A stretch of 64,000 nucleotides of DNA, taken from NCBI GenBank assembly GCA_016937995.1, contig JAFGVM010000016.1, forward strand, positions 1 through 64,000. The letters run 5' to 3'. The position numbers and the translations under genes are program-made. Positions 3,731-37,908 of the stretch are shown here, piece by piece. The notes below the pieces were generated by a model. The model saw only the letters and a program-made list of their open reading frames with translations. It was not told the DNA's origin and searched no databases. The DNA is from Candidatus Delongbacteria bacterium (GTDB lineage Bacteria > UBA4055). Position 1 is the stretch's first letter. Every line of letters begins with the position of its first letter.

Positions 3731-5926
3731 ATGAAGAAGTTGACTATATTCTTTTTCTCGCTGTTGCTACTGTTGACTATGTTCTTTCAAACGGGATGCT
3801 CTTCTGATACACCAACAGATGAAACAGATCCTATCGTGATCGATATTAAAGTTACAAATCTGGGTCATCAGACAGTTGGGATCGATAGTTTTGATACTCA
3901 GACATCTTTTACTGTAATAGTTCAGCTTACCGGATTAACAGAAAATTATTCGCAGATAAATTTTTATCTCGGCACGGATACTAATCCTGTCGAAGAGGTG
4001 ACTAGAGCAACAATTTCTACACTTGCTGAACAACAGAGCTTAGATGCTACCATAACTCAGGATATAAGTACTCTCGGTCTTAGTGAAGGTCCTATTGATT
4101 TAAGAATTGAAGCTATCGGTACTAACTTTGCTGTTGACGAGGTCATAATACCTATTTACCTGAATCTTCCGGATGAGAACAGTGAATGGATCGATATTGC
4201 TTTAATAAGTCCTGAAAATCCTAGCGAATACGATATTGGAGATATGATAGAAATGCAGATCCATGTTCAGGGTAATAGCACAATGTTCAAATCATTCGAG
4301 GCTTATTTTGAAATGGACCCTGATCCAATTTTTCAGACAACTACATTCGATGACACACTCTACTTTTCGTTCGAAACTGAAGATCTTGCTATCGGTGATT
4401 ACGCGATCAATTTCAATGTTACTGATATTTATGATGTCGTTAAGCAAAAGAGTTTAAATTTCAGACTTAACGAGTTCATTCCAACGTTCGAGGTGGTGGA
4501 TAACAACGGTGTAGGTTACGAATTAAAATCCATGGTCCAAACTTATGATGGCGGCTATGTTACTGTGGCATCTGATTCACTGCTCGGTACAAGAATAGTG
4601 AAATATATTTACAATAAAGAGCTTGAGCAGGTTGATGTTTTATGGGAAGAAAACATAAGAGCTGAAGTTGGAGTTGCTGAAAGTGTTTGCGAGGATAAGG
4701 ATTATAATGGTGGTGTGATCATTGCGGGTTGGAGAATAAGTGATATTGATGGTCTGAAAGACACCTGGGTAAGAAAGGTTAGCTCTGATGACGGAAGTTT
4801 GATCTGGAATAAGCATTACGGTTATAACGGGATCGATGACGGTGCAACTGTAATTAAAAAATCAGTTGACGATGGTTATATAATTGGTGGTTACACTTAC
4901 AACTATTATCATGCCGATGGGTTGGATGGCGGATATACAGAATTCGTAATTCCTGGTGAAAACGAATTTGATGTAGACAGTGTAACGTATAACTGGGATA
5001 CTGGTTATGACGTCAGACTATTGAAGATCTATAGTAACGGCAACGAGATCTGGGGACATAATCATAGCTACGATTCACATAGAAGATGGCATGATATTTC
5101 ATCACATAGTTTATGGTGGGATGGATATCTTATCGCTTGGTGGGTAAGGACAATGGGTGATCAATACATCACTGACTTATTCGCAAAAGATGATGGTACA
5201 TATATCGTTACAGGATGGAATAATGCCCGTTTATATATCTATGATGGATCTGATGATAGGGATATGTACTATGCCCATCTTGATAATACAGGAGGTTTTC
5301 TTGAAACTATGACTTGGTCAGAAATGACTGGTTTTGACATAAGTCATCCATCTAGAACAGATGATTTCTGGGGATTCTACGATGTTCCAGGTGTATACGA
5401 TAGATTAAATAACAGTCTTTATCGTGCCAATCATTTAGGAACTGTTACAGAGGATGAGATCGGTTATGGAATAGTTGAATCATTTAAGGGTTACACTGGA
5501 GATGTTGTACTGGCCGGAGAAACTTATGAGATCGACGACGATCCTGTAACTAAAAGTAAATTCCATGATGGCTGGGTAGTTGAATTCACTATCAATGGTG
5601 ATGAGGACGGTGCTTTGTGGGAATATAGTTTTGGTGAAGCAGAAGTTGAAGATAAGGCTTATGGGATCGACCAGACAAAAGATGATGGATACATTGTTAC
5701 AGGTTATACTACTATAGGATCTGATAAAGCAACATGGACATACAAACTCAATACTGAGCTGTTGGTAGTATGGTCAAAGAAATTCGATGTTGCAGGTGAC
5801 GATTGGGGTATGAAAGCAATTCAAACTAGAGATGGTGGATACATCACAGGTGGTAATGTTAACCCTGGTGGTGGTTTAAGAGCTAGGTTGATAAAAATCA
5901 ATAAATTGGGGCAGTTTAACGAATAA
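3731..5926 (+). CDS. Large secreted lipoprotein with beta-propeller-like repeats
   Basis: The N-terminus is a lipoprotein signal with the lipid-accepting Cys at residue 23 (FFQTGCSS). Residues ~25-250 form two Ig-like beta modules ending in a WIDI...FDDTLYFSF region. From ~260 onward there are degenerate repeats of the form 'DDGYIVTGYT...D.WTYKLN...VVW.K', a pattern found in secreted FCB proteins and likely to fold as a propeller; I count at least four, the clearest at the C-terminus. Function is unknown; a surface adhesin or binding protein is plausible. The N-terminal half has a damaged paralogue at 13631-14347. A good ribosome site (GGAGG) precedes the ATG. The gene stands alone and ends at a strong shared terminator. 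Confidence 0.75.
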   Translation: MKKLTIFFFSLLLLLTMFFQTGCSSDTPTDETDPIVIDIKVTNLGHQTVGIDSFDTQTSFTVIVQLTGLTENYSQINFYLGTDTNPVEEVTRATISTLAEQQSLDATITQDISTLGLSEGPIDLRIEAIGTNFAVDEVIIPIYLNLPDENSEWIDIALISPENPSEYDIGDMIEMQIHVQGNSTMFKSFEAYFEMDPDPIFQTTTFDDTLYFSFETEDLAIGDYAINFNVTDIYDVVKQKSLNFRLNEFIPTFEVVDNNGVGYELKSMVQTYDGGYVTVASDSLLGTRIVKYIYNKELEQVDVLWEENIRAEVGVAESVCEDKDYNGGVIIAGWRISDIDGLKDTWVRKVSSDDGSLIWNKHYGYNGIDDGATVIKKSVDDGYIIGGYTYNYYHADGLDGGYTEFVIPGENEFDVDSVTYNWDTGYDVRLLKIYSNGNEIWGHNHSYDSHRRWHDISSHSLWWDGYLIAWWVRTMGDQYITDLFAKDDGTYIVTGWNNARLYIYDGSDDRDMYYAHLDNTGGFLETMTWSEMTGFDISHPSRTDDFWGFYDVPGVYDRLNNSLYRANHLGTVTEDEIGYGIVESFKGYTGDVVLAGETYEIDDDPVTKSKFHDGWVVEFTINGDEDGALWEYSFGEAEVEDKAYGIDQTKDDGYIVTGYTTIGSDKATWTYKLNTELLVVWSKKFDVAGDDWGMKAIQTRDGGYITGGNVNPGGGLRARLIKINKLGQFNE

Positions 5927-5939
5927 ATATATTGTTATG

Positions 5940-5972
5940 AAAAAAAGGGAAGCTAGAAGCTTCCCTTTTTTT
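5940..5972. terminator. Bidirectional terminator between convergent genes
   Basis: An A-run, an 8-bp stem GGGAAGCT/AGCTTCCC with a 3-base loop, and a T-run work in both directions. It separates the lipoprotein gene from the convergent DUF554 gene. Confidence 0.85.
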
Positions 5973-5985
5973 ATGGTTTAAATAT

Positions 5986-6669
5986 TTACTTTATGTAATA
6001 AACCAGAACAGCTATGAACAATAGGCTCGGAACTAAGTTAAGTATCTTAAGTTTTTTTATCTCAAGGATATTTATTCCCAATCCGATGAGAATGATCCCT
6101 CCGACTGCAGAGATCTCATTTATCATCAGTTCAGTGAACATTCCCTCCAGTAATCCTGCAAATAATGTTAATCCTCCCTGGTATATCATCAGCGGTACGA
6201 CAGAGAACAATACCCCTAAACCAAGCGACGATGCCAGGGCAATTGATGCAAATCCGTCCATTAAAGATTTTGTTAAGAGCAGATCTGAAACACCACCCAT
6301 TCCTTCTTCAATAGCACCAAGAATTGTCATTGAACCCATACAGAACAGCATAAATGCTGTTACAAGCCCTTCAGTGAACTTATCATTCTTTGTTCTTATC
6401 TTACTTTTGACCTTATCACCCAGAAATTCAATTCTTGCTTCAAGTTTAAGCAGTTCACCCGTGATCGCACCCAAGACAAGACTGAAGACCATCAATAGAA
6501 TATTATTAGTTTTTAAAGCCATCGAAAAACCAAGAAAAAGAGTAAAAAGACCGATTCCCTGAAATACGGTCTTAATGATCCTCTCAGGCAGCTTATTATG
6601 AATGATCAATCCAATTATACTGCCTGATATAACTGCAGCAACATTAACAATTGTTCCCTGTATAAGCAT
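5986..6669 (-). CDS. DUF554 membrane protein (YqgA/YdfK-like)
   Basis: An inner-membrane protein of 227 residues with six to seven hydrophobic segments. The N-terminus (GTIVNVAAVISGSIIGL), the GITGELLKLE-like segment (here GAITGELLKLE, ~residues 68-78) and the EGMGG loop are typical of DUF554, and the length fits. Family function is not established; transport has been suggested. It lies downstream of, and in line with, the DUF2164 gene (18-base gap), so they may share a transcript. Confidence 0.85.
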   Translation of the reverse strand: MLIQGTIVNVAAVISGSIIGLIIHNKLPERIIKTVFQGIGLFTLFLGFSMALKTNNILLMVFSLVLGAITGELLKLEARIEFLGDKVKSKIRTKNDKFTEGLVTAFMLFCMGSMTILGAIEEGMGGVSDLLLTKSLMDGFASIALASSLGLGVLFSVVPLMIYQGGLTLFAGLLEGMFTELMINEISAVGGIILIGLGINILEIKKLKILNLVPSLLFIAVLVYYIK

Positions 6670-6943: not shown

Positions 6944-8047
6944 TTAATATGTATATATGTTTAGTTTAGACTTACCGTTTACCAGCTCATATATCTTATC
7001 TCCCAGGAAATATATTTTGGAATCGAACCTGCTGACAAAATCCTCTCCGGTCAATCCCTGAATTTTTGATCTGCTGATGAAAGAGTCATCTTTATACATG
7101 TCAATTATAAAATCATTTTGATTTGTACTGTCCCTTTCAATTGAAGGACAAACGATAAGCCTGTTGTATTTATCATAGAATAGATCGTTGATTGATTTTT
7201 TATAAGATTTATTCTCGGTCATAAGGTTTCCGTTAGCACGTAAATTCATGGTTTTGATCTTATCCTGTTCGTAATGATTATATTCTATTTTTGAATAATC
7301 GTGCGATATTTTATGGATCTTTTTCCCTTCAAGATCAAATACATCAATAGCATATTTATCCTCATTGTTCTCAGCAACATAGATCTTTCCACCGCCCGAT
7401 GTAAATTTAGAGATCGATTCAAAGTACTTGATATTATAAGGATCAAATTCAATTTGATAATCCCTCAGAACTGCAATTTCTTCGAATTTTTTATTCATAA
7501 GAGCAAGATTATGCCTAAAAAGCAGTTGACCCTTCCTGTTGTCCTCAACATTATGCATATAACCGACAATTTTATCATCTGAGACTGAACGGAGTATCTC
7601 CCCTATCACACCTTTAAAAAGTCCTTCATTTCTATAATCAAAAGTTTCAATATAATTACCCTTATCATCAAACTTAACTATCTTTTTGTTTGGAAATGAT
7701 TTTACATATACAGTATCCTCAATGATCACAAGATCAAGACTTAGAAATTGCCCGGGTTCTTTGCCTAAACTTCCAAATGAAGTAATGAAATCACCGGTAT
7801 CATTGAATTTCAGGATCTTTCCTTTTCTTGAATTCAGTAAATAAATATTTCCATCGCTGTCAATATCCATGTCTTCGATCTCACTGAAAGTTCTGGTCGA
7901 ATCTTCTGTATCGACATCTCCGGATATAGAAAATAAAATATCCAGAGCCAGAGTATCCGGTTTGTAATTAGGATTTTTTTTGCTGCAGCTTATTGTGTAT
8001 AATAACAAAAAACTCAACGCAACAGGGAAGTACTTTTGAAATTTCAT
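6944..8047 (-). CDS. 6-bladed beta-propeller lipoprotein (NHL-like)
   Basis: A lipoprotein of 367 residues: hydrophobic signal, then the lipidated Cys at residue 21 (LYTISCSKK). The mature part has NHL-type blades, seen as 'DMDIDSDGNIYLLNSRKGK' (~64-82) followed by 'FGSLGKEPGQF', the usual propeller turn. Such proteins are common in Bacteroidota-like genomes as '6-bladed beta-propeller' proteins of unknown function facing the periplasm or outer membrane. The operon continues into the DUF2164 gene. The upstream gene at 8059 runs the same way with an 11-base gap, so 8556 to 5986 may be one transcript. Confidence 0.75.
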   Translation of the reverse strand: MKFQKYFPVALSFLLLYTISCSKKNPNYKPDTLALDILFSISGDVDTEDSTRTFSEIEDMDIDSDGNIYLLNSRKGKILKFNDTGDFITSFGSLGKEPGQFLSLDLVIIEDTVYVKSFPNKKIVKFDDKGNYIETFDYRNEGLFKGVIGEILRSVSDDKIVGYMHNVEDNRKGQLLFRHNLALMNKKFEEIAVLRDYQIEFDPYNIKYFESISKFTSGGGKIYVAENNEDKYAIDVFDLEGKKIHKISHDYSKIEYNHYEQDKIKTMNLRANGNLMTENKSYKKSINDLFYDKYNRLIVCPSIERDSTNQNDFIIDMYKDDSFISRSKIQGLTGEDFVSRFDSKIYFLGDKIYELVNGKSKLNIYTY

Positions 8048-8058
8048 ATTTTATTACC

Positions 8059-8556
8059 CTACTTCTTATTCATTATTATTTCTGAACTTTCTTTGATCTT
8101 TTTCCAGTCAAAGTCTTTGCTCAACTTAAGAGCTTCCTCAGGTTTCATATTCTCAAAGCTGAACATTAGAAATCCACCATCGGTCTCACTTTTACCAAGA
8201 TCTACGATTATCGCCCCTGCATTTTCTTCTTTATCATAAGCCTGATAAGCATCCATTCCATTTATCTTATCAGTCTGATAGATTCCTTCCTCATTTTCCA
8301 CGTTCATTTGAGGCATTTGACCTGTCACCAAAGTGTTGGTGCCAATGATAACCGTAACCAGAAACTCTTTATCACCGTTAGTATATTCTCTCACAGCATT
8401 GACCATTTTCATACCACCCATGTCCATACTCATACCTTCAGCCTCACCTGCTTCCCAGCCTTTGATATCCACCAGTTCTTTCTTCAATGCTTCAGATTGA
8501 TCTGCAAAAACTATGGTTGCCATAAGCATTAAAATTAAAACTATCATCTTTTTCAT
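8059..8556 (-). CDS. Exported protein of unknown function
   Basis: 165 residues with a cleavable signal peptide ending near residue 18 (MATIVFADQ). The mature protein is acidic and has a methionine-rich run at about 42-52 (GMSMDMGGMKM), which could bind copper or silver, but this is only a suggestion. I do not recognise the family. An AGGAGG-type site lies before the ATG. It is the first gene of a probable operon with the propeller lipoprotein. Confidence 0.6.
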   Translation of the reverse strand: MKKMIVLILMLMATIVFADQSEALKKELVDIKGWEAGEAEGMSMDMGGMKMVNAVREYTNGDKEFLVTVIIGTNTLVTGQMPQMNVENEEGIYQTDKINGMDAYQAYDKEENAGAIIVDLGKSETDGGFLMFSFENMKPEEALKLSKDFDWKKIKESSEIIMNKK

Positions 8557-29858: not shown

Positions 29859-30575
29859 TTAATCTTTAACGCATCTTACAGACACTCCCATTTCTTTATA
29901 AGGGAGTGTATATGTGTCACAGTTTATACTGTCGCAGTGTAAACTGTAATTGACAGGCCAATATTGCCCTCCGATATTCCAATAGGAACTTGTCCTGAAA
30001 ACACCCTGATTATATAAATTAATATAGTATATACCTAATTTCATTCCACCTGGAAGGCCGGTGAAACCGCTTTCATTATCTGCATCGCTATTTGATATCC
30101 AGTGAGCATTTCCTGATTCCTTTAATTTACTTCCTGCTATTTCTTCACCACCAAGCCAGTTTATCAAAATATCCCATTCCTCTTCAGTCGGAACATGCCA
30201 TCCTTCGGGAGCGATATTCCGATTATCTTTTACTGCATACCAATTATAAAGCAATCCGTAAACTTCAGCTAAATTTGGATCATTATTATAATAACAATAC
30301 GCACCATCTGTTGTATTGCTCCATTCGGTATTATCTGTCAGATTAGGAACAGGATCACCGTTCCGGTAATGTGTTACTTTCAGATTTTCAGCCATCCATA
30401 TCTGAGATCCTATCCCGATCGTAGCATAAACATTACCGTCAATATCCGTTACTGAACCGACTTCACCTGTATGATCGACAAAAGGATCAGGTTCAACTGT
30501 GATATCCTCATTTGTGCAATTTACAAGAAGAAGGATTATTATTGAAACAATGGTTATGTTAATAATATTCTTCAT
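29859..30575 (-). CDS. FISUMP-domain lipoprotein
   Basis: 238 residues. The lipoprotein signal ends at Cys20 (LLLVNCTNED). A FISUMP domain fills ~45-238: 'DIDGNVYATIGIGSQIWMA', 'NLKVTHYRNGDPVP', 'LYNWYAVKD', 'APEGWHVPTEEEWDIL', 'ESGFTGLPGG' and the end GVSVRCVKD. I start at the ATG at 30575, behind CAGGAAC and 14 bases after the upstream stop; an ATG at 30599 would overlap the upstream gene. It is a paralogue of the protein at 24467-25234 in the domain but is lipid-anchored. Probably cotranscribed with the barrel-like protein upstream. Confidence 0.85.
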   Translation of the reverse strand: MKNIINITIVSIIILLLVNCTNEDITVEPDPFVDHTGEVGSVTDIDGNVYATIGIGSQIWMAENLKVTHYRNGDPVPNLTDNTEWSNTTDGAYCYYNNDPNLAEVYGLLYNWYAVKDNRNIAPEGWHVPTEEEWDILINWLGGEEIAGSKLKESGNAHWISNSDADNESGFTGLPGGMKLGIYYINLYNQGVFRTSSYWNIGGQYWPVNYSLHCDSINCDTYTLPYKEMGVSVRCVKD

Positions 30576-30589
30576 ATTTTGTTCCTGTT

Positions 30590-31696
30590 TTAATACCATA
30601 CCGCACCTATACCGATACTGATCAGTAAAGGGGTATCATCTGTTTCAGGAAGAAAAAATCCATTAATTGAGAAATGTGCTTCCTGAGCAAGATGATCCGA
30701 CAGATCACCGAAATCACCCCAGTCTAAGGTCCATTGAATACCCATTGGATTAAAAGTACTAGTTAAATCACCTTCATAATACTCTTCTTCGATCTCCATA
30801 CGGCTTCTAGATAATGTAAAATTTGGCTTCCAGTATAATCCAAGCATAATACCTTTCCATTCAGATTCTGATAAGAATTTTCCAATACCAAAAGTATAGC
30901 CAATATTGGGTGATAATTCTATTGTTATTTGAGTAATATTTGCTTCAGTATTATAAGTTGTCATTGTGCCATAATCAAACCATGGCATTTCAATGCTACC
31001 ATAAGTTTGGTTTCCTGTAAATGAAAATTTAATTGAGAAAGCATTCCAGGAATTCTTATTTCCTTCATAACTTGGAGGAGATAGAAATTTTAAAGCACCA
31101 GACATAGATATACCAAAACCATTCATTTTGAATTGTGTATCTGAATCGCTGCTAATTCCCATATTGTCCATTTGCATACTGGCATAAGTATAATTAACAG
31201 ACAAACTTTTTTGCAATAGCATTCCCCCATCTTCAAGCCAGCATCTTCTCTTTGCATCTGATTCTAAGGTCTGATAATAGTCAACACTGACTTCTCCTGT
31301 TTTTTTATCAAGATCAATAGTTGGTTTATTTCCAGTGTTTTCCTGCTGGATCTCTTTAATGTATTCCTCTTCTTTAGGGCTTATTACTTCTTCCTTATAT
31401 TTAAAACCATCCATCATTGATTTACTTTCTTTCTTCATTATTTCAGGTTTTTCTTCAAACTTCTGAGCTGGATCTTTGGAAAATACTATTTCTTTAATTG
31501 AATCCCAGGTAATAATTCTCTTGTTATTTTCTTCATCTATAACTTCAGCGAATTTACCGATCTCATACTTTTCAACGGAACATTTTAGTATCTCTCCGTT
31601 CTTATAGAATATTGTAGCTTTTTCAAGAGAAAAAGCCGTAAAAACGAATAAAAATATTGATGCCAACAAACAACTTCTAAATTGCAGGATCTTCAT
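30590..31696 (-). CDS. Exported protein, probable outer-membrane beta-barrel
   Basis: 368 residues. Signal peptide (to about residue 23, TAFSLEK), then a small domain 'TIFYKNGEILKCSVEKYEIG' of the kind that starts many FCB envelope proteins, an acidic linker (~85-130), and from ~155 alternating hydrophobic strands that end in a C-terminal aromatic (AVWY), as in outer-membrane barrels. No family name recognised. It lies upstream of the FISUMP lipoprotein gene with a 14-base gap, so they may act together at the outer membrane. Confidence 0.6.
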   Translation of the reverse strand: MKILQFRSCLLASIFLFVFTAFSLEKATIFYKNGEILKCSVEKYEIGKFAEVIDEENNKRIITWDSIKEIVFSKDPAQKFEEKPEIMKKESKSMMDGFKYKEEVISPKEEEYIKEIQQENTGNKPTIDLDKKTGEVSVDYYQTLESDAKRRCWLEDGGMLLQKSLSVNYTYASMQMDNMGISSDSDTQFKMNGFGISMSGALKFLSPPSYEGNKNSWNAFSIKFSFTGNQTYGSIEMPWFDYGTMTTYNTEANITQITIELSPNIGYTFGIGKFLSESEWKGIMLGLYWKPNFTLSRSRMEIEEEYYEGDLTSTFNPMGIQWTLDWGDFGDLSDHLAQEAHFSINGFFLPETDDTPLLISIGIGAVWY

Positions 31697-32500: not shown

Positions 32501-33010
32501 AAAGTCCCTTAGGGACGACCTACAACATTATATATTTTCTTCCTTATACTTTATTTCGTATTTCTCAGGAAATTCTATATATTCTTCCTTAAATGTTATT
32601 TTTTTGTTATGCGACTTCTGATTCTTAATATATTCTTTTACTCTAATAACTTGAGATTGAGAACAAGAAAATGCACCATATCCGTACTGCCAACTAAATT
32701 TTGTTTTATACCAACCTTTATCGTTAATAAATTTTGAAGATACTGCTTTTATTTCTTGCATGAACTTAGAGATCGAATAAGTAGAATGTAATGCCACCAA
32801 TAAATGAACATGATCTGAAACATTATTAATTGATAAAGTATTACATTTCCTTTCTTTAGCTAAACCGGATATATATTTATGTAATTCTTCATCATACTTT
32901 TCATTGAGGATTTTATCTCTGTTCTTTGTTGAAAATATACAATGGAGATAATTTTGTGTGTATGAGTTAGACATGATCTCTCTTTTAGGTCGTCCCGAGG
33001 GGACTTTGGT
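32501..33010 (-). mobile_element. REP-flanked Y1 transposase unit (RAYT-like)
   Basis: The ends are inverted repeats: AAAGTCCCTTAGGGACGACC (32501-32520 on) and GGTCGTCCCGAGGGGACTTT (32989-33008), 20 of 22 positions alike including the adjoining TA. Each end is itself a hairpin (GTCCC TTA GGGAC and GTCCC GAG GGGAC). Between them lies one Y1 transposase gene. This is the layout of a REP-associated tyrosine transposase with its two REP hairpins. Further small hairpins lie at 32434-32446 and 32458-32477. Confidence 0.7.
32528..32974 (-). CDS. Y1 transposase (IS200/REP-associated)
   Basis: 148 residues, the normal size. The HUH metal motif is HVH at 55-57 (NNVSDHVHLLVAL), and the catalytic Tyr115 is in VKEYIKNQ. 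An N-terminal 'YLHCIFSTKNRDKIL' strand is typical of the family. It nicks single-stranded DNA at hairpin ends and moves such elements. I take the ATG at 32974, behind AAGAGAG; a longer reading starting at 33031 would run through the REP end. No TnpB is present. Confidence 0.9.
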   Translation of the reverse strand: MSNSYTQNYLHCIFSTKNRDKILNEKYDEELHKYISGLAKERKCNTLSINNVSDHVHLLVALHSTYSISKFMQEIKAVSSKFINDKGWYKTKFSWQYGYGAFSCSQSQVIRVKEYIKNQKSHNKKITFKEEYIEFPEKYEIKYKEENI

Positions 33011-33294
33011 GTTTAATTTTTTTCTTCTCACGGGGTTGAAACCACGTGTTATATTAGCTCGTCCTTACAGGACTTTTTTCTTATATTTCTCTTTTTCCTA
33101 CTTTTGCTCGCTACGGAATGGAAAACGGAATGTAACTATGAGAGACGGACAACGAGGTTCGTTTATATTTGCCATACCCTTTTGTGAACATGGGGTTTCA
33201 ACCCCTTGCAAACTTCTTTTTTCTTTTGGCAAAAGAAAAAGAAGCAAAAAAGAAAAGTGTAAAAGCGTAAAAGTGCAAAGTGTAAGCGCTTACG
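33011..33294. other. Repeat-rich gap between transposase and caspase/FGE gene
   Basis: Holds the hairpin GGGGTTTCAACCCC (33192-33205), an imperfect 14-15-bp inverted repeat of CTTCTTTT.../...AAAAGAAG type (33213-33244) that may end the caspase gene, and a 12-bp perfect palindrome GTAAGCGCTTAC (33282-33293) directly behind its stop codon. I see no gene. Confidence 0.5.
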
Positions 33295-35505
33295 CTAATA
33301 AGTCCTTGCAATACGAAACCCGAAGCCGTCGTACGCGTGGTCTGGGGCGTGGTAGTTGCGGTCTGAAACTTCGCAGTAGAGGTCGTAGGAGTACCACGAC
33401 CCGCCCCGGAGAACACGGGTCGAGCCCTCAGTGTACCAGTCCCAGCACCATTCCCACACATTTCCGCTCATATCATATATTCCAAGTTCGTTCGGCTGTT
33501 TTGTAGCAACAGAATGAGTTTCACTTCCTGAATTACTACTATACCATGCCACATCGCTAACATTGTCACTGCCTGAATATGTGTATCCTCTGCTCTGATT
33601 TCCGCCTTTTGCCGCATACTCCCATTCTGATTCTTTAGGCAAACGGTAGCCATTTGCTTTGAAATTACAGGATATGTTATCTCCGCTTCCGCTGTAACAC
33701 TTCTGCAGACCTTCCATTTCACTCAGTTTGTTGCAGAATTCGACTGCTTCGTACCAGTTCACTTGTTCTACAGGTTTATTGTCGCCTTTGAAGTTGCTCG
33801 GATTGTTACCCATCACAGCTTCCCATTGCGCCTGTGTTACTTCGGTTTTTCCGATGTAAAAATCGCCGACAGTCACGCTGTGAACAGGCTTCTCGTCGCT
33901 TTCCGTTCCGCCTTCTACAAATACGAGATCCCCCAGAACTGAAGATCGTACCTTAGGAATAAACAGCATTTTATATTTAGAAGCTAGCTTCTCATCTTTC
34001 TGGATCTTTGCATAATCTTCCCACTTTTTCTTGAATCCGGCAAGGTATTTCTGTTTCAATTCTTCACTTAGCGGTGAAGCGTTCATTTCCTCTATATCTT
34101 TGATATCTTTTTCAAACTGCGGTTTGAGTTTATCAAGTTCCGCCTGCTTATTTGTCTTGGCTTCTTTAATTTTCTGATATACAGGTTCAAGGAGCGGCAG
34201 CAGTTTCTGTTTGACTTCGGAGTATTTTACAGAATTGACCTCGTTTCTCAGTCTTTCCAATTTTTCATGCTTAACGAAAATGTCTTCCGTCCTGTCAAGC
34301 TCATCTATTGCCTTATTATACTTGGCTTTCAACTCATTATAGACTCTTTCCTTATCTTTTGCCTCTCTTGCTTTTCTTTCTTCCGCTTCTTTTGCAGCTT
34401 TTATCTCCTCTTCCTGAGCCATTGCAAGTTTCCAGCTTGAAAGGTCTGTGTCGTCAACTTTTATGGTTTTATCCTGTATGACTTTTGGCTGATATACCGG
34501 AAGATTTTCTTTCAGATACTCTTTATTCTCATTGAATTTCTTTATTTTTGCAAGTTCGGCCTCAGAATCGTACTGGAAGATAGGTTTTGCGCCTTCTTTC
34601 TTTTGTTCTGCGACTACCTTTTCGGCATTGTATCTGAAGAGCATGAAAGGTTCATACGAAATTCCGCCTTCGGTCTGATATACGGGATTCATTGAGGGTA
34701 ATCCTTGAGTTTTTGTGTAGTCTCCGAGCCTGTTGTCTGCAAATTGAACAAGGTCTTCGATCGTTATTATTCCATCTTTGGAGAAATCAATGTCCATGGC
34801 TGAATTGGGTGAATCGTTGAGGTAGGTCATGTAGTATGTAAAAGCTCCTCTGCCTTTGTCCTTTCTTTCGAATGACTGCTGGCCTTCAGAAGCTGCGTAA
34901 ATTGTTTTCACTATGGTTTTGTCGGATTTCTTTGATTGAGCAACGAGTTCTGTGTCTATAGTTGAATTTACTTTTATACCTTTGCCTGTGTTGAGCTTTG
35001 AAGCTATTTTTTTATTGGCACCCTTGCCTTCCTTTTTGATAAAGTTCCTGCAGGCATCAACGATCATAACCACTTCAGAAGGGCTATTTTCCTTTAATAT
35101 CTGCTTTATTTCCTCAACTGAAATACTTCCGTATTTTTCGGGATTATCAATATTCCCGTCCGCTCCAAGCAGATAGTTCTTACCGTCACTTCCGCCGATC
35201 CCATGACCTGAAAAGAAGAAAACAACTTCGTCGCCTTTCTGGATTCCTCTTGCGAAAGCGGTGACATTTGAGAATAGATCCGAGGCTGTGAGCAGTTCTC
35301 CGTAGCCTGCGTCTTTTAACGCCCAGATATGATCGTCCTGAAATCCGCCCTGCATTAAAAGGTCTTTCATTGCGTCAACATCGCCGTGACAGGCTTCGAG
35401 TGAGGCAAATGCCTTGTAGTTCTGTACTCCGACAAGCATTGCTGTCCGTTTCGCGGATAGGCTAATAATAAATGCTAATATTAGGATGGAAAATATTTTA
35501 TTCAT
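33295..35505 (-). CDS. Exported caspase-like peptidase with FGE-type C-terminal domain
   Basis: 736 residues. Signal peptide (~1-18), then a C14 caspase-like domain (~19-290) with catalytic-type His101 (VFFFSGHGIGG) and Cys152 (MIVDACRNF). A charged, coiled-coil-rich middle (~330-500) leads to a formylglycine-generating-enzyme-fold domain (~510-736: 'VEGGTESDEKPVHSVTVGDF', 'NGYRLPKESEWEYAAKGG', 'GIYDMSGNVWEWCWDW'). The tail VLRGGSW...GFGFRIARTY has an unusual base composition and looks like a retroelement-diversified ligand site. I start at the ATG at 35505, behind GAGGA. Next upstream is a DUF4143 ATPase, then a DUF4384 protein, a domain often linked to caspases. Target unknown. Confidence 0.87.
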   Translation of the reverse strand: MNKIFSILILAFIISLSAKRTAMLVGVQNYKAFASLEACHGDVDAMKDLLMQGGFQDDHIWALKDAGYGELLTASDLFSNVTAFARGIQKGDEVVFFFSGHGIGGSDGKNYLLGADGNIDNPEKYGSISVEEIKQILKENSPSEVVMIVDACRNFIKKEGKGANKKIASKLNTGKGIKVNSTIDTELVAQSKKSDKTIVKTIYAASEGQQSFERKDKGRGAFTYYMTYLNDSPNSAMDIDFSKDGIITIEDLVQFADNRLGDYTKTQGLPSMNPVYQTEGGISYEPFMLFRYNAEKVVAEQKKEGAKPIFQYDSEAELAKIKKFNENKEYLKENLPVYQPKVIQDKTIKVDDTDLSSWKLAMAQEEEIKAAKEAEERKAREAKDKERVYNELKAKYNKAIDELDRTEDIFVKHEKLERLRNEVNSVKYSEVKQKLLPLLEPVYQKIKEAKTNKQAELDKLKPQFEKDIKDIEEMNASPLSEELKQKYLAGFKKKWEDYAKIQKDEKLASKYKMLFIPKVRSSVLGDLVFVEGGTESDEKPVHSVTVGDFYIGKTEVTQAQWEAVMGNNPSNFKGDNKPVEQVNWYEAVEFCNKLSEMEGLQKCYSGSGDNISCNFKANGYRLPKESEWEYAAKGGNQSRGYTYSGSDNVSDVAWYSSNSGSETHSVATKQPNELGIYDMSGNVWEWCWDWYTEGSTRVLRGGSWYSYDLYCEVSDRNYHAPDHAYDGFGFRIARTY
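33313..33393 (-). other. Candidate DGR variable region in the FGE domain
   Basis: Reading from 33393 down, 19 of 25 codons end in C (e.g. TAC TCC TAC GAC CTC TAC, then GAC CGC AAC TAC CAC GCC). G+C over 33301-33420 is 72 of 120 bases (60%) in a genome that looks about one-third G+C. This is what adenine-to-any-base change of AAC codons gives in variable regions of diversity-generating retroelements, and the FGE fold ending in GFR-I/L-A is a known target type. No template repeat or reverse transcriptase is in the window. Confidence 0.65.
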
Positions 35506-35528
35506 ATAAACATTCCTCAATTAGTTTT

Positions 35529-35555: not shown

Positions 35556-36857
35556 TTATTCATAACTTAACAGAAAACGCCAAGCAGGTATCACATTTAT
35601 CTTACCATTTTCTACTAATATTTCTTCATCATCATTTTTTGTAACTATTGTACCAGACTTCAAATTCAATTCATTCATAGCCTCTACAAGAGCATTGACC
35701 TCTCTTTTACGGGTATTTTCATCGGTCATTGTTTCACATACTTGTATCAATTCTTTGCTTCGATCTTGTCTAAGAATAATAAAATCTACTTCTTTTCCAT
35801 TTTTAGTCTTATAATAAAAAATATCCGTCGTTAATCTGCGAAGTGCGTTAAAAACAATATTTTCAAGTAAATGACCCGAATTAACCAAAATATTCGAACT
35901 CACTGATCTGATCATAGAATGATCAATGCAGTATATCTTTTTAGGATTTGCATTCGATCTTGAAATTGAAGCATCAAACATTCTTATAGTAAAAAGAAAA
36001 TAAGCATCTTCAAACCATAAAAGATAATCACTGACAGTTGATTTTTGCACCTTATGACCGAGTGATTTAAGATATCCTGTAAGGTTATTTAAAGAATACA
36101 GAGAACCGATATTATCCATTAGCCTGTGAGCAAGATCTAAAACCGATTTAGGATGAAATACATCATAACGTTCAATTAGATCACGAAATAAGACAGCATT
36201 AAAATATTCCTGATGTATCTTGATCCTCAATGAATCTTCAAGACCGGTTGTCTCTGGAAAACTACCCTCTCTAAAATAGTTATCAAAAGCCTTCTGCACG
36301 GTCAGTCTTTTTTTTGTTGTAAAAGCACCTTCTTGATCTATTCTGTTATATTTCAGAAATTCACTGAATGAAAACGGAAATATTTCCCACGAAACAGACC
36401 TGCCCCGCATCTGAGATGCAATTTCTTTGGAAAGCATCTTTGCAGACGAGCCGGTTATATATACTTCACAGTTTTCAGTACGAAGTATACGTTCAACGAA
36501 AGATTCCCATCCGTTTAATAACTGTATCTCATCAAAAAAACAATATACTTTCTCTGAATTTTTCTTTTCAGGAAATAACGAATAATACGCTTCGGTAATT
36601 ATATTGAGTTCAGTATGCTGTAAAGGATAGAGTCTATCATCGAAAAAGTTAAGATATAAAATATTCTCTTTCTTAACTCCTTTCTTAAGCAACTTATCAA
36701 TGATCTGGAACATCAGTGTAGATTTACCACTTCTGCGAACGCCTATACAAATTGTTGCTTTACCGGAAATCGTTGAAATATTCATATCTCTAGAAACACC
36801 ACAATTAAGTTTTGAATCTTGGAAGTTCAATATGATTTCTTTCAATGCACCAAGCAC
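35556..36857 (-). CDS. AAA_14/DUF4143 ATPase
   Basis: 433 residues. N-terminal P-loop ATPase with Walker A GVRRSGKS (39-46), Walker B VYCFFDEIQ and sensor region VYITGSSAKML; the C-terminal half is the DUF4143 domain, including a nuclease-like 'GKEVDFIILRQ' strand. The GTG start at 36857 follows TAGGAG. This family is widespread, often as many paralogues in one genome, and its role is unclear; some members are thought to be transposon-related or toxin-like. Shares strand and position with the caspase/FGE gene, but a hairpin lies between. Confidence 0.88.
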   Translation of the reverse strand: MLGALKEIILNFQDSKLNCGVSRDMNISTISGKATICIGVRRSGKSTLMFQIIDKLLKKGVKKENILYLNFFDDRLYPLQHTELNIITEAYYSLFPEKKNSEKVYCFFDEIQLLNGWESFVERILRTENCEVYITGSSAKMLSKEIASQMRGRSVSWEIFPFSFSEFLKYNRIDQEGAFTTKKRLTVQKAFDNYFREGSFPETTGLEDSLRIKIHQEYFNAVLFRDLIERYDVFHPKSVLDLAHRLMDNIGSLYSLNNLTGYLKSLGHKVQKSTVSDYLLWFEDAYFLFTIRMFDASISRSNANPKKIYCIDHSMIRSVSSNILVNSGHLLENIVFNALRRLTTDIFYYKTKNGKEVDFIILRQDRSKELIQVCETMTDENTRKREVNALVEAMNELNLKSGTIVTKNDDEEILVENGKINVIPAWRFLLSYE

Positions 36858-37053: not shown

Positions 37054-37908
37054 TTACTTACTCGTAATGATCTCTATCTCTTCTTCACAGAACTCAGCGG
37101 CGTTACTCATAGATTTTTTCTTCTTATTGATCTTAATACCACGGGTCTTAACACCTGTATCTTTGTAACTATCTTCTATCACATAAACACTTTCTGCATC
37201 CTGTGTTGTACTTGTACCGAGTTCATCTGTACTGGCATAAACAACAATCTTCTCAGTACCGAATGGAGGTGCTACAGTAAGTTCATATCTATCCTTTCCG
37301 GACGGAAGTCCATAAACTGTTCCACCGTTGAAATAGTTATCTTTTCTAAATGGGTTCGGAAGTAATTGAATCTGAGTACCATCAACCTGTAAATATACAA
37401 CTTTAGCATAGAAAGGTTTATTCCCCTTGATATAAAGTTTTATATTTTCATTTTCTTTGTACTTTTGATCTTTCTTATCACACCATGCTTTTATCATCAA
37501 AGGTGCATTGGGGTCATCCATAATTCCTGTACTGGAATACATCTTTTCAAGTTTCTCTGTCTTTGGTGTGACTTCAACTTTTAGAGTAATTTTGAAAGAT
37601 TCACCCATAATTGGATCCTGAAACCATTCTGATTTAAGCTCTTCAAGAATTCTGACCACCGCCTGAGAATATGCTTCCATCAGATCTGCTTCAGTAACGT
37701 AATTCTTAACAACAGTCTCTGATTTCACATAAGTACCTGCAACTTCTGAAGCCATTTTCTTTGCGTTTGTCTTAGCTTCTTCAATAGTCTCTTTTCTGGA
37801 TTTATCATCCCCCATTGTTGCTTTACCCTCAACCTCAATAATGATCGACTGAGCTGAGAACAAAGTGATCAGAAAAGTTAGCATACAAAATAAAAATATC
37901 TTTTTCAT
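37054..37908 (-). CDS. Exported DUF4384 protein
   Basis: 284 residues with a signal peptide (~1-19, LFSAQSI). Residues ~25-115 resemble the LPP20/flagellar-T N-terminal type domain ('RKETIEEAKTNAKKMASEVA'). Residues ~140-235 fit DUF4384: 'YKENENIKLYIKGNKPFY', 'AKVVYLQVDGTQIQLLPNPF' and 'DRYELTVAPPFGTEKIVVYA'. DUF4384 is often found in or beside exported caspase-like proteins, and such a protein is encoded two genes away. A joint envelope system is plausible but unproven. Confidence 0.75.
   Translation of the reverse strand: MKKIFLFCMLTFLITLFSAQSIIIEVEGKATMGDDKSRKETIEEAKTNAKKMASEVAGTYVKSETVVKNYVTEADLMEAYSQAVVRILEELKSEWFQDPIMGESFKITLKVEVTPKTEKLEKMYSSTGIMDDPNAPLMIKAWCDKKDQKYKENENIKLYIKGNKPFYAKVVYLQVDGTQIQLLPNPFRKDNYFNGGTVYGLPSGKDRYELTVAPPFGTEKIVVYASTDELGTSTTQDAESVYVIEDSYKDTGVKTRGIKINKKKKSMSNAAEFCEEEIEIITSK

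Follow-up and report, generated by a model that had tools for sequence, protein, structure and literature searches.

A predicted exported caspase–FGE protein as a probable remote target of a chromosomal DGR in an uncultured Delongbacteria lineage

The question raised by this locus is why a gene for a protein that appears to join a caspase domain to an FGE domain should end in a short GC-rich tract, and whether, as a first-pass annotation had proposed for positions 33301–33420 of the window (the whole stretch of 64,000 nucleotides that we analysed), this tract is the variable region of a diversity-generating retroelement (DGR). The tract stands out as had been described, being exactly 60% G+C in an AT-rich region where 120-bp stretches of the window average 34.4% (sd 5.8), and a value of 58% or more is reached within the 64 kb only by 33292–33474. 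When we counted the codon list by hand we also obtained the number given earlier, with a final C in 19 of the 25 codons in coding order from 33393.

The tract belongs to an open frame on the minus strand which can be started at a TTG (741 aa) or, better and more likely, at the ATG at 35505 (736 aa), and both of the domains that had been claimed for the product were found by Pfam. The features of the gene and its product are as follows:

33295–35520, minus strand: target gene for the caspase–FGE protein, with predicted export (open frame; Pfam Peptidase_C14 E=5e-18, FGE-sulfatase E=2e-43).
35452–35505, minus strand: predicted signal peptide MNKIFSILILAFIISLSA without a lipobox Cys (from the sequence and the hydrophobic N-terminus ending A-KR in orthologs).
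34828–35451, minus strand: caspase (Peptidase_C14) domain, residues 24–231 (Pfam), with His106 in SGHG and Cys157 in DACR.
33967–34437, minus strand: long helical, coiled-coil-like linker (helices 357–475 and 481–513, pLDDT mostly 70–87).
33304–33915, minus strand: FGE / C-type-lectin domain (Pfam FGE-sulfatase, residues 536–739; model pLDDT 93.5; structural match TvpA 2y3c).
33306–33418, minus strand: variable repeat (VR), homologous to the template repeat at G000:C40:10193–10305(-), from the adenine comparison given below.
33306–33405, minus strand: VR core, in which the differences from the template lie solely at template adenines.

Used as a query against its own genome (G000, a draft of 2.75 Mb in 99 contigs which is 97% complete), the tract matched itself and two partial copies, at C13:110–289 and C40:10193–10309, and contig C40 also carries the genes of a DGR:

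C40:10193–10305, minus strand: template repeat (TR), frame GGSWNNNDNNCKVSNRNNNNPDNKNNNNGFR, mostly AAC codons.
C40:9551–9895, same strand as the TR and downstream of it: bAvd gene (NF033474, 111 bits with a cut-off of 80).
C40:8473–9561, same strand as the TR and downstream of it: reverse transcriptase (RT) gene (RVT_1 E=1.6e-29).

A near-copy of the tract with AAC codons had been suggested as the thing to look for, and in the TR, which sits about 0.3 kb upstream of avd, these codons stand exactly at the NNC positions of the VR. The Avd assignment has further scores behind it (bAvd 75.5, above 40, and a PHROG match to 'Avd protein of DGR'), and the RT carries the DGR-type motifs LPIGNLTSQ (IGNLTSQ) and YMDD; it is the only RVT_1 gene found across the genome, and the relatives that it matched in a wider collection of genome contigs are all distant (26–30% identity). 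A genome with neither RT nor template repeat had been named as the outcome that would speak against a DGR, and this one holds one RVT_1 gene, an Avd gene and a TR.

The C13 copy is the VR (C13:125–237) of a second FGE protein, which is predicted to be exported, has an FGE tip with no caspase domain, and is the DGR's cis target. The end of C13 overlaps that of C40 by 31 bases, and we infer from this that the two contigs are adjacent, in an orientation that gives the order target–VR–TR–avd–RT, while the TR and the window target lie on separate draft contigs. A TR search of the genome at E<=10 found no third VR. We note that HEPN and nucleotidyltransferase genes, a toxin–antitoxin-like pair, lie right behind the DGR RT at L010 (G000:C40) 7733–8403, and that similar small nucleotidyltransferase genes were seen by eye beside DGR parts in the related genome G003, at L099 (G003:C8) 578–883 and 5393–6089.

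The argument is carried by the comparison of VR with TR. Along 113 bases, 22 of the 42 TR adenines are changed in the window VR, compared with 3 of the 71 remaining bases (Fisher p=3.9e-9). These three differences are all at the 5' edge (33406–33411), and over the 100 bases of the core the counts are 22 of 42 adenines and none of 58 other bases. The cis VR on C13 has changes at 24 of 42 adenines and at none of the 71 other bases. This is the adenine-directed change of AAC template codons which had been anticipated from the codon pattern, and the proposed variable region stands, with its limits refined from 33301–33420 to 33306–33418 and an adenine-limited core of 33306–33405. As the window VR differs from the C40 TR at adenines, we consider that the tract is very probably the VR of a remote (trans) target of this chromosomal DGR, with the VR evidence coming from one consensus assembly. 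The TR allows 20 variable residues, and so approximately 10^22 proteins; 15 of these residues have AAC codons, from which a stop is unreachable.

With 11 FGE genes, the genome is rich in such domains, which would suit an ordinary FGE domain whose GC-rich tip arose by codon bias, horizontal origin or chance and which has no link to a DGR. We give this reading almost no weight, as the AAC-codon near-copy, RT and Avd are found within the same genome, the core differences are all at template adenines, and the NNC pattern is missing from the other FGE tips that were read. Third-position C makes up 62–66% in the tips of the two targets compared with 16–19% in three other FGE paralogs (three non-target paralogs were taken for this scoring, the rest not fitting the search pattern and being left unscored). 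Chance and codon bias as the source of the GC-rich tip are ruled out by the template repeat together with these paralog tips.

A phage origin of the caspase gene and its DGR is very improbable, and it was rejected on the neighbouring genes and the viral contig scans. DGRs do occur in phages, and there are distant RT and FGE relatives in viral contigs; against this, the nearest RT found in the viral contigs has 38% identity, the genes seen by eye beside the DGR are diaminopimelate-epimerase-like and oxidoreductase-like on C40 and elongation-factor-P-like and kinase genes on C13, and the caspase part had no match in the viral contigs.

A remote target leaves the question of how the gene came to be separate from the cassette, and here the 3' flank of the gene is informative:

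33282–33293, no strand assigned: 12-bp palindrome GTAAGCGCTTAC, found once in the window (0 expected).
33210–33297, minus strand: spacer common to the window gene and the cis target (C13:33–116), 89% identity.
33145–33182, minus strand: possible vestige of a spacer–TR junction (tentative, about 38 bp), resembling the C40 bases running into the TR start.
32528–33031, minus strand: gene for an IS200-like Y1 transposase, on the far side of the possible TR vestige (Pfam Y1_Tnp E=3e-28).

The palindrome had been noticed earlier and is present after the stop, but the suggestion that it is a DGR hairpin is unsupported, since the cis target does not keep it and has at this site a 3-bp deletion and no stable hairpin. 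The spacer holds an AT-rich inverted repeat (CTTCTTTTTCTTTT/AAAAG.AAAAAAGAAG) which is further downstream than the palindrome and is present at C13 too. The segment at 33145–33182 is collinear with the spacer and has a local score of 38 against C40, where none of 3088 control segments scored above their maximum of 29; with an earlier and laxer scoring the result was weaker, as 1000 shuffles gave two scores as high and 1980 window segments gave one. This flank suggests that the window gene may once have been in its own cassette, or may have received its 3' flank from one. The IS200-like element has a single copy in the genome at the DNA level, which leaves its ends and any part in the loss of the TR conjectural. 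We also note that a segment of some 28 bp containing GGGGTTGAAACCCC, in the 33185–33212 region of the window, recurs at C30, C56:182610, C50 and C67.

These observations also bear on whether the gene could be a fossil target, with a VR written by a DGR in the past, a remote gene no longer reached and its own cassette lost. The possible vestigial TR junction suggests decay at the locus, the palindrome is no conserved hairpin, leftover remote targets are found in Treponema denticola (PMC4891356), and the VR is read from a single consensus genome. We consider a fossil unlikely nonetheless, as none of the 58 non-adenine bases of the core differ, synonymous sites included, and the RT, Avd and TR are intact. 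A suggestive contrast is provided by a related genome (G008) to which no RT, Avd or TR was assigned and whose VR-like tips are 3–9 non-adenine bases away from the nearest foreign TR.

Further analysis of relatives covered 13 genomes of one family of the same phylum. Long caspase–FGE orthologs with 67–80% identity were found in three other genera, represented by G003 (two copies), G007 and G008, with the G007 ortholog running off the contig end just before the VR, and DGR-type RTs were found in G000, G001 and G003. We compared VRs and TRs across genomes using gapless 93-base blocks, in which the window VR has no differences at 54 non-adenine sites from its own TR compared with 16–28 non-adenine differences from the G003 and G001 TRs. 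The G003 C250 ortholog, which comes from another genus and is 77% identical to the window protein, matches its own, different TR (C8b), with differences at 1 of 61 non-adenine and 19 of 32 adenine sites, and differs from the G000 TR at 15 of 54 non-adenine sites. The VR/TR pair of G001 likewise differs at 17 of 30 adenines and at none of the 63 other sites.

On these alignments, the constant bases of the VR follow the resident template, in agreement with the DGR reading, and the most likely account of this tracking is that the targets were overwritten from their templates once the lineages had diverged. Transfer of a whole cassette between lineages is an alternative which we regard as weaker, because the C250 copy and the G008 C39 copy have the same pyrimidine-synthesis-like genes in their vicinity, as read by eye.

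Not all of the relatives fit a present-day template. The other G003 ortholog (C86, 742 aa) is not put forward as a current target, as no compared TR fits it well (16–27 non-adenine mismatches). G003 also has a second, shorter caspase–FGE protein (524 aa) with a VR-like tip at L099:1111–2685 (G003:C8), for which the fit to the nearest TR is moderate (10 of 61 non-adenine sites mismatched), and a truncated caspase copy without an FGE domain lies close by at L099:6086–6997 (G003:C8). In G008, VR-like NNC tips are present on four FGE genes (L103, L104 and L105), two of which are near-tandem on C51 and have an N-terminal repeat part in common. Neither RT nor Avd was found in this genome (97% complete), and the sole match of the TR search was inside a VR-like tip, so that the tip differences may be due to decay or to an unseen template. 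HRDC genes are present in G001 and G003, and one adjoins a G003 ortholog.

We turned to structure for the likely role of the protein. An FGE domain model built from a 36-sequence alignment of family members found as its best solved match TvpA (2y3c; Z 32.3, rmsd 1.3 over 213 residues, 46% identity), and BPP-1 Mtd also matches (Z 15). In the sequence alignment, the window VR segment falls on the C-terminal RVLRGGSW...GFRLA segment of TvpA. The closest match of the domain is therefore a DGR variable protein and not a catalytic FGE, which agrees with the earlier suggestion that the tip is a C-type lectin of the type that DGRs target. The full-length structure model is poor (pLDDT 48) and was used for the helical linker alone. 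The Peptidase_C14 score is 66.2 bits (above 21.4 in Pfam), and the SGHG (His) and DACR (Cys) motifs are kept in the five long caspase–FGE proteins and in the shorter one. Export of the target protein is predicted from the N-terminal sequence.

While the TR, Avd, RT and two VRs are read directly from sequence, the copying steps proposed here are taken from established DGR biology. The RT with Avd would copy the TR RNA with errors at adenines, and the cDNA would replace the 3'-terminal VR of the caspase–FGE gene in trans, with homing through the shared 3' block CGGGTTTCGTATTGCAA plus upstream homology. The signal peptide would export the protein and the C-type-lectin tip would bind variable ligands outside the cytoplasm, with the helical stalk connecting it to a caspase-type protease whose His–Cys pair is intact.

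The function that we favour, giving it about an even chance, is that of a variable sensor coupled to proteolysis. A fuller version, which is plausible though we stop short of calling it probable, is that this lineage keeps exported sensor-proteases, in which one polypeptide has a caspase and a DGR-diversified tip, the tip being rewritten in trans by the currently resident template. The product would be a variable receptor, secreted or periplasmic, that carries its own protease. Alternatively, the protein may be a DGR target in which the caspase is not a regulated effector and serves as a structural or processing module of a surface or periplasmic binder or adhesin, a reading we think possible but somewhat doubtful. 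It would agree with the cis target on C13 and two of the G008 VR-tipped proteins, which are exported-type FGE tips (export being predicted) without a caspase domain, and with a global survey in which most cellular DGR target clusters combine binding or adhesion domains with a signal peptide or TM domain (PMC8144416). However, all five long members keep the entire caspase domain with its His and Cys motifs, and the second, shorter caspase–FGE architecture also bears a VR-like tip.

The target can be compared with several known systems. The TvpA-type DGR of T. denticola also has an FGE-type C-type-lectin tip and several exported targets per genome, including remote ones (PMC4891356), though the accessory gene there is HRDC and here is bAvd, most of the targets there are predicted lipoproteins, and a caspase domain is not mentioned in that paper. 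Cyanobacterial DGRs have dispersed remote targets and orthocaspase–CLec variable proteins with a C-terminal VR, which are mostly predicted to be cytosolic (PMC7517822); here, in contrast, a protein of an uncultured lineage has a predicted signal peptide and carries a TvpA-like FGE tip on a long helical stalk. Among multicellular bacteria, Thiohalocapsa PB-PSB1 has been described as having trans diversification as well as protease-linked putative antigen sensors that a DGR diversifies (PMC10907252), and both this system and the conflict systems of Kaur et al. (PMC7159879) have diversified FGE/CLec tips, some in trans, protease-type effectors and IS-shaped loci. They differ from the present case in that the sensor and caspase here are one polypeptide with predicted export, and we saw no STAND, MoxR or vWA partner beside the window gene. 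The Bordetella phage BPP-1 DGR shares the adenine-specific TR-to-VR difference, bAvd and CLec fold, and differs in that the DGR here is chromosomal with a trans target and has no conserved GC-rich hairpin after the VR (PMC3240598).

Remote targets and caspase–CLec targets are thus already known, and what is added is an unusual caspase–FGE target with predicted export that is kept in several genera. This comparison covers the open-licence literature, in which we found no papers linking DGRs with Delongbacteria, and an earlier report of the same architecture is possible. The locus appears to provide a caspase-type protein, apparently exported, with a recognition tip open to targeted hypermutation, so that the cell could vary what a caspase-like protein recognises, and with it an uncultured lineage joins the DGR users that link variable binding to protease domains, a combination for which the discussion has so far centred on cyanobacteria and other multicellular bacteria. 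The orthologs across genera are a natural comparison, as they carry their own template's constant bases and this makes trans retrohoming and template turnover testable by sequence.

Finally, we note the genes around the target. An AAA_14/DUF4143 ATPase gene lies directly upstream (window 35556–36857), and an ATPase gene of similar look, read by eye, lies upstream of a G003 ortholog (L102:2976–4166). DUF4384 is frequent in the vicinity of caspase-type proteins, and a DUF4384 protein with a signal-like N-terminus is encoded two genes upstream (window 37054–37908). A Fib_succ_major protein with a lipoprotein-like N-terminus is encoded at 29859–30599 in the window.
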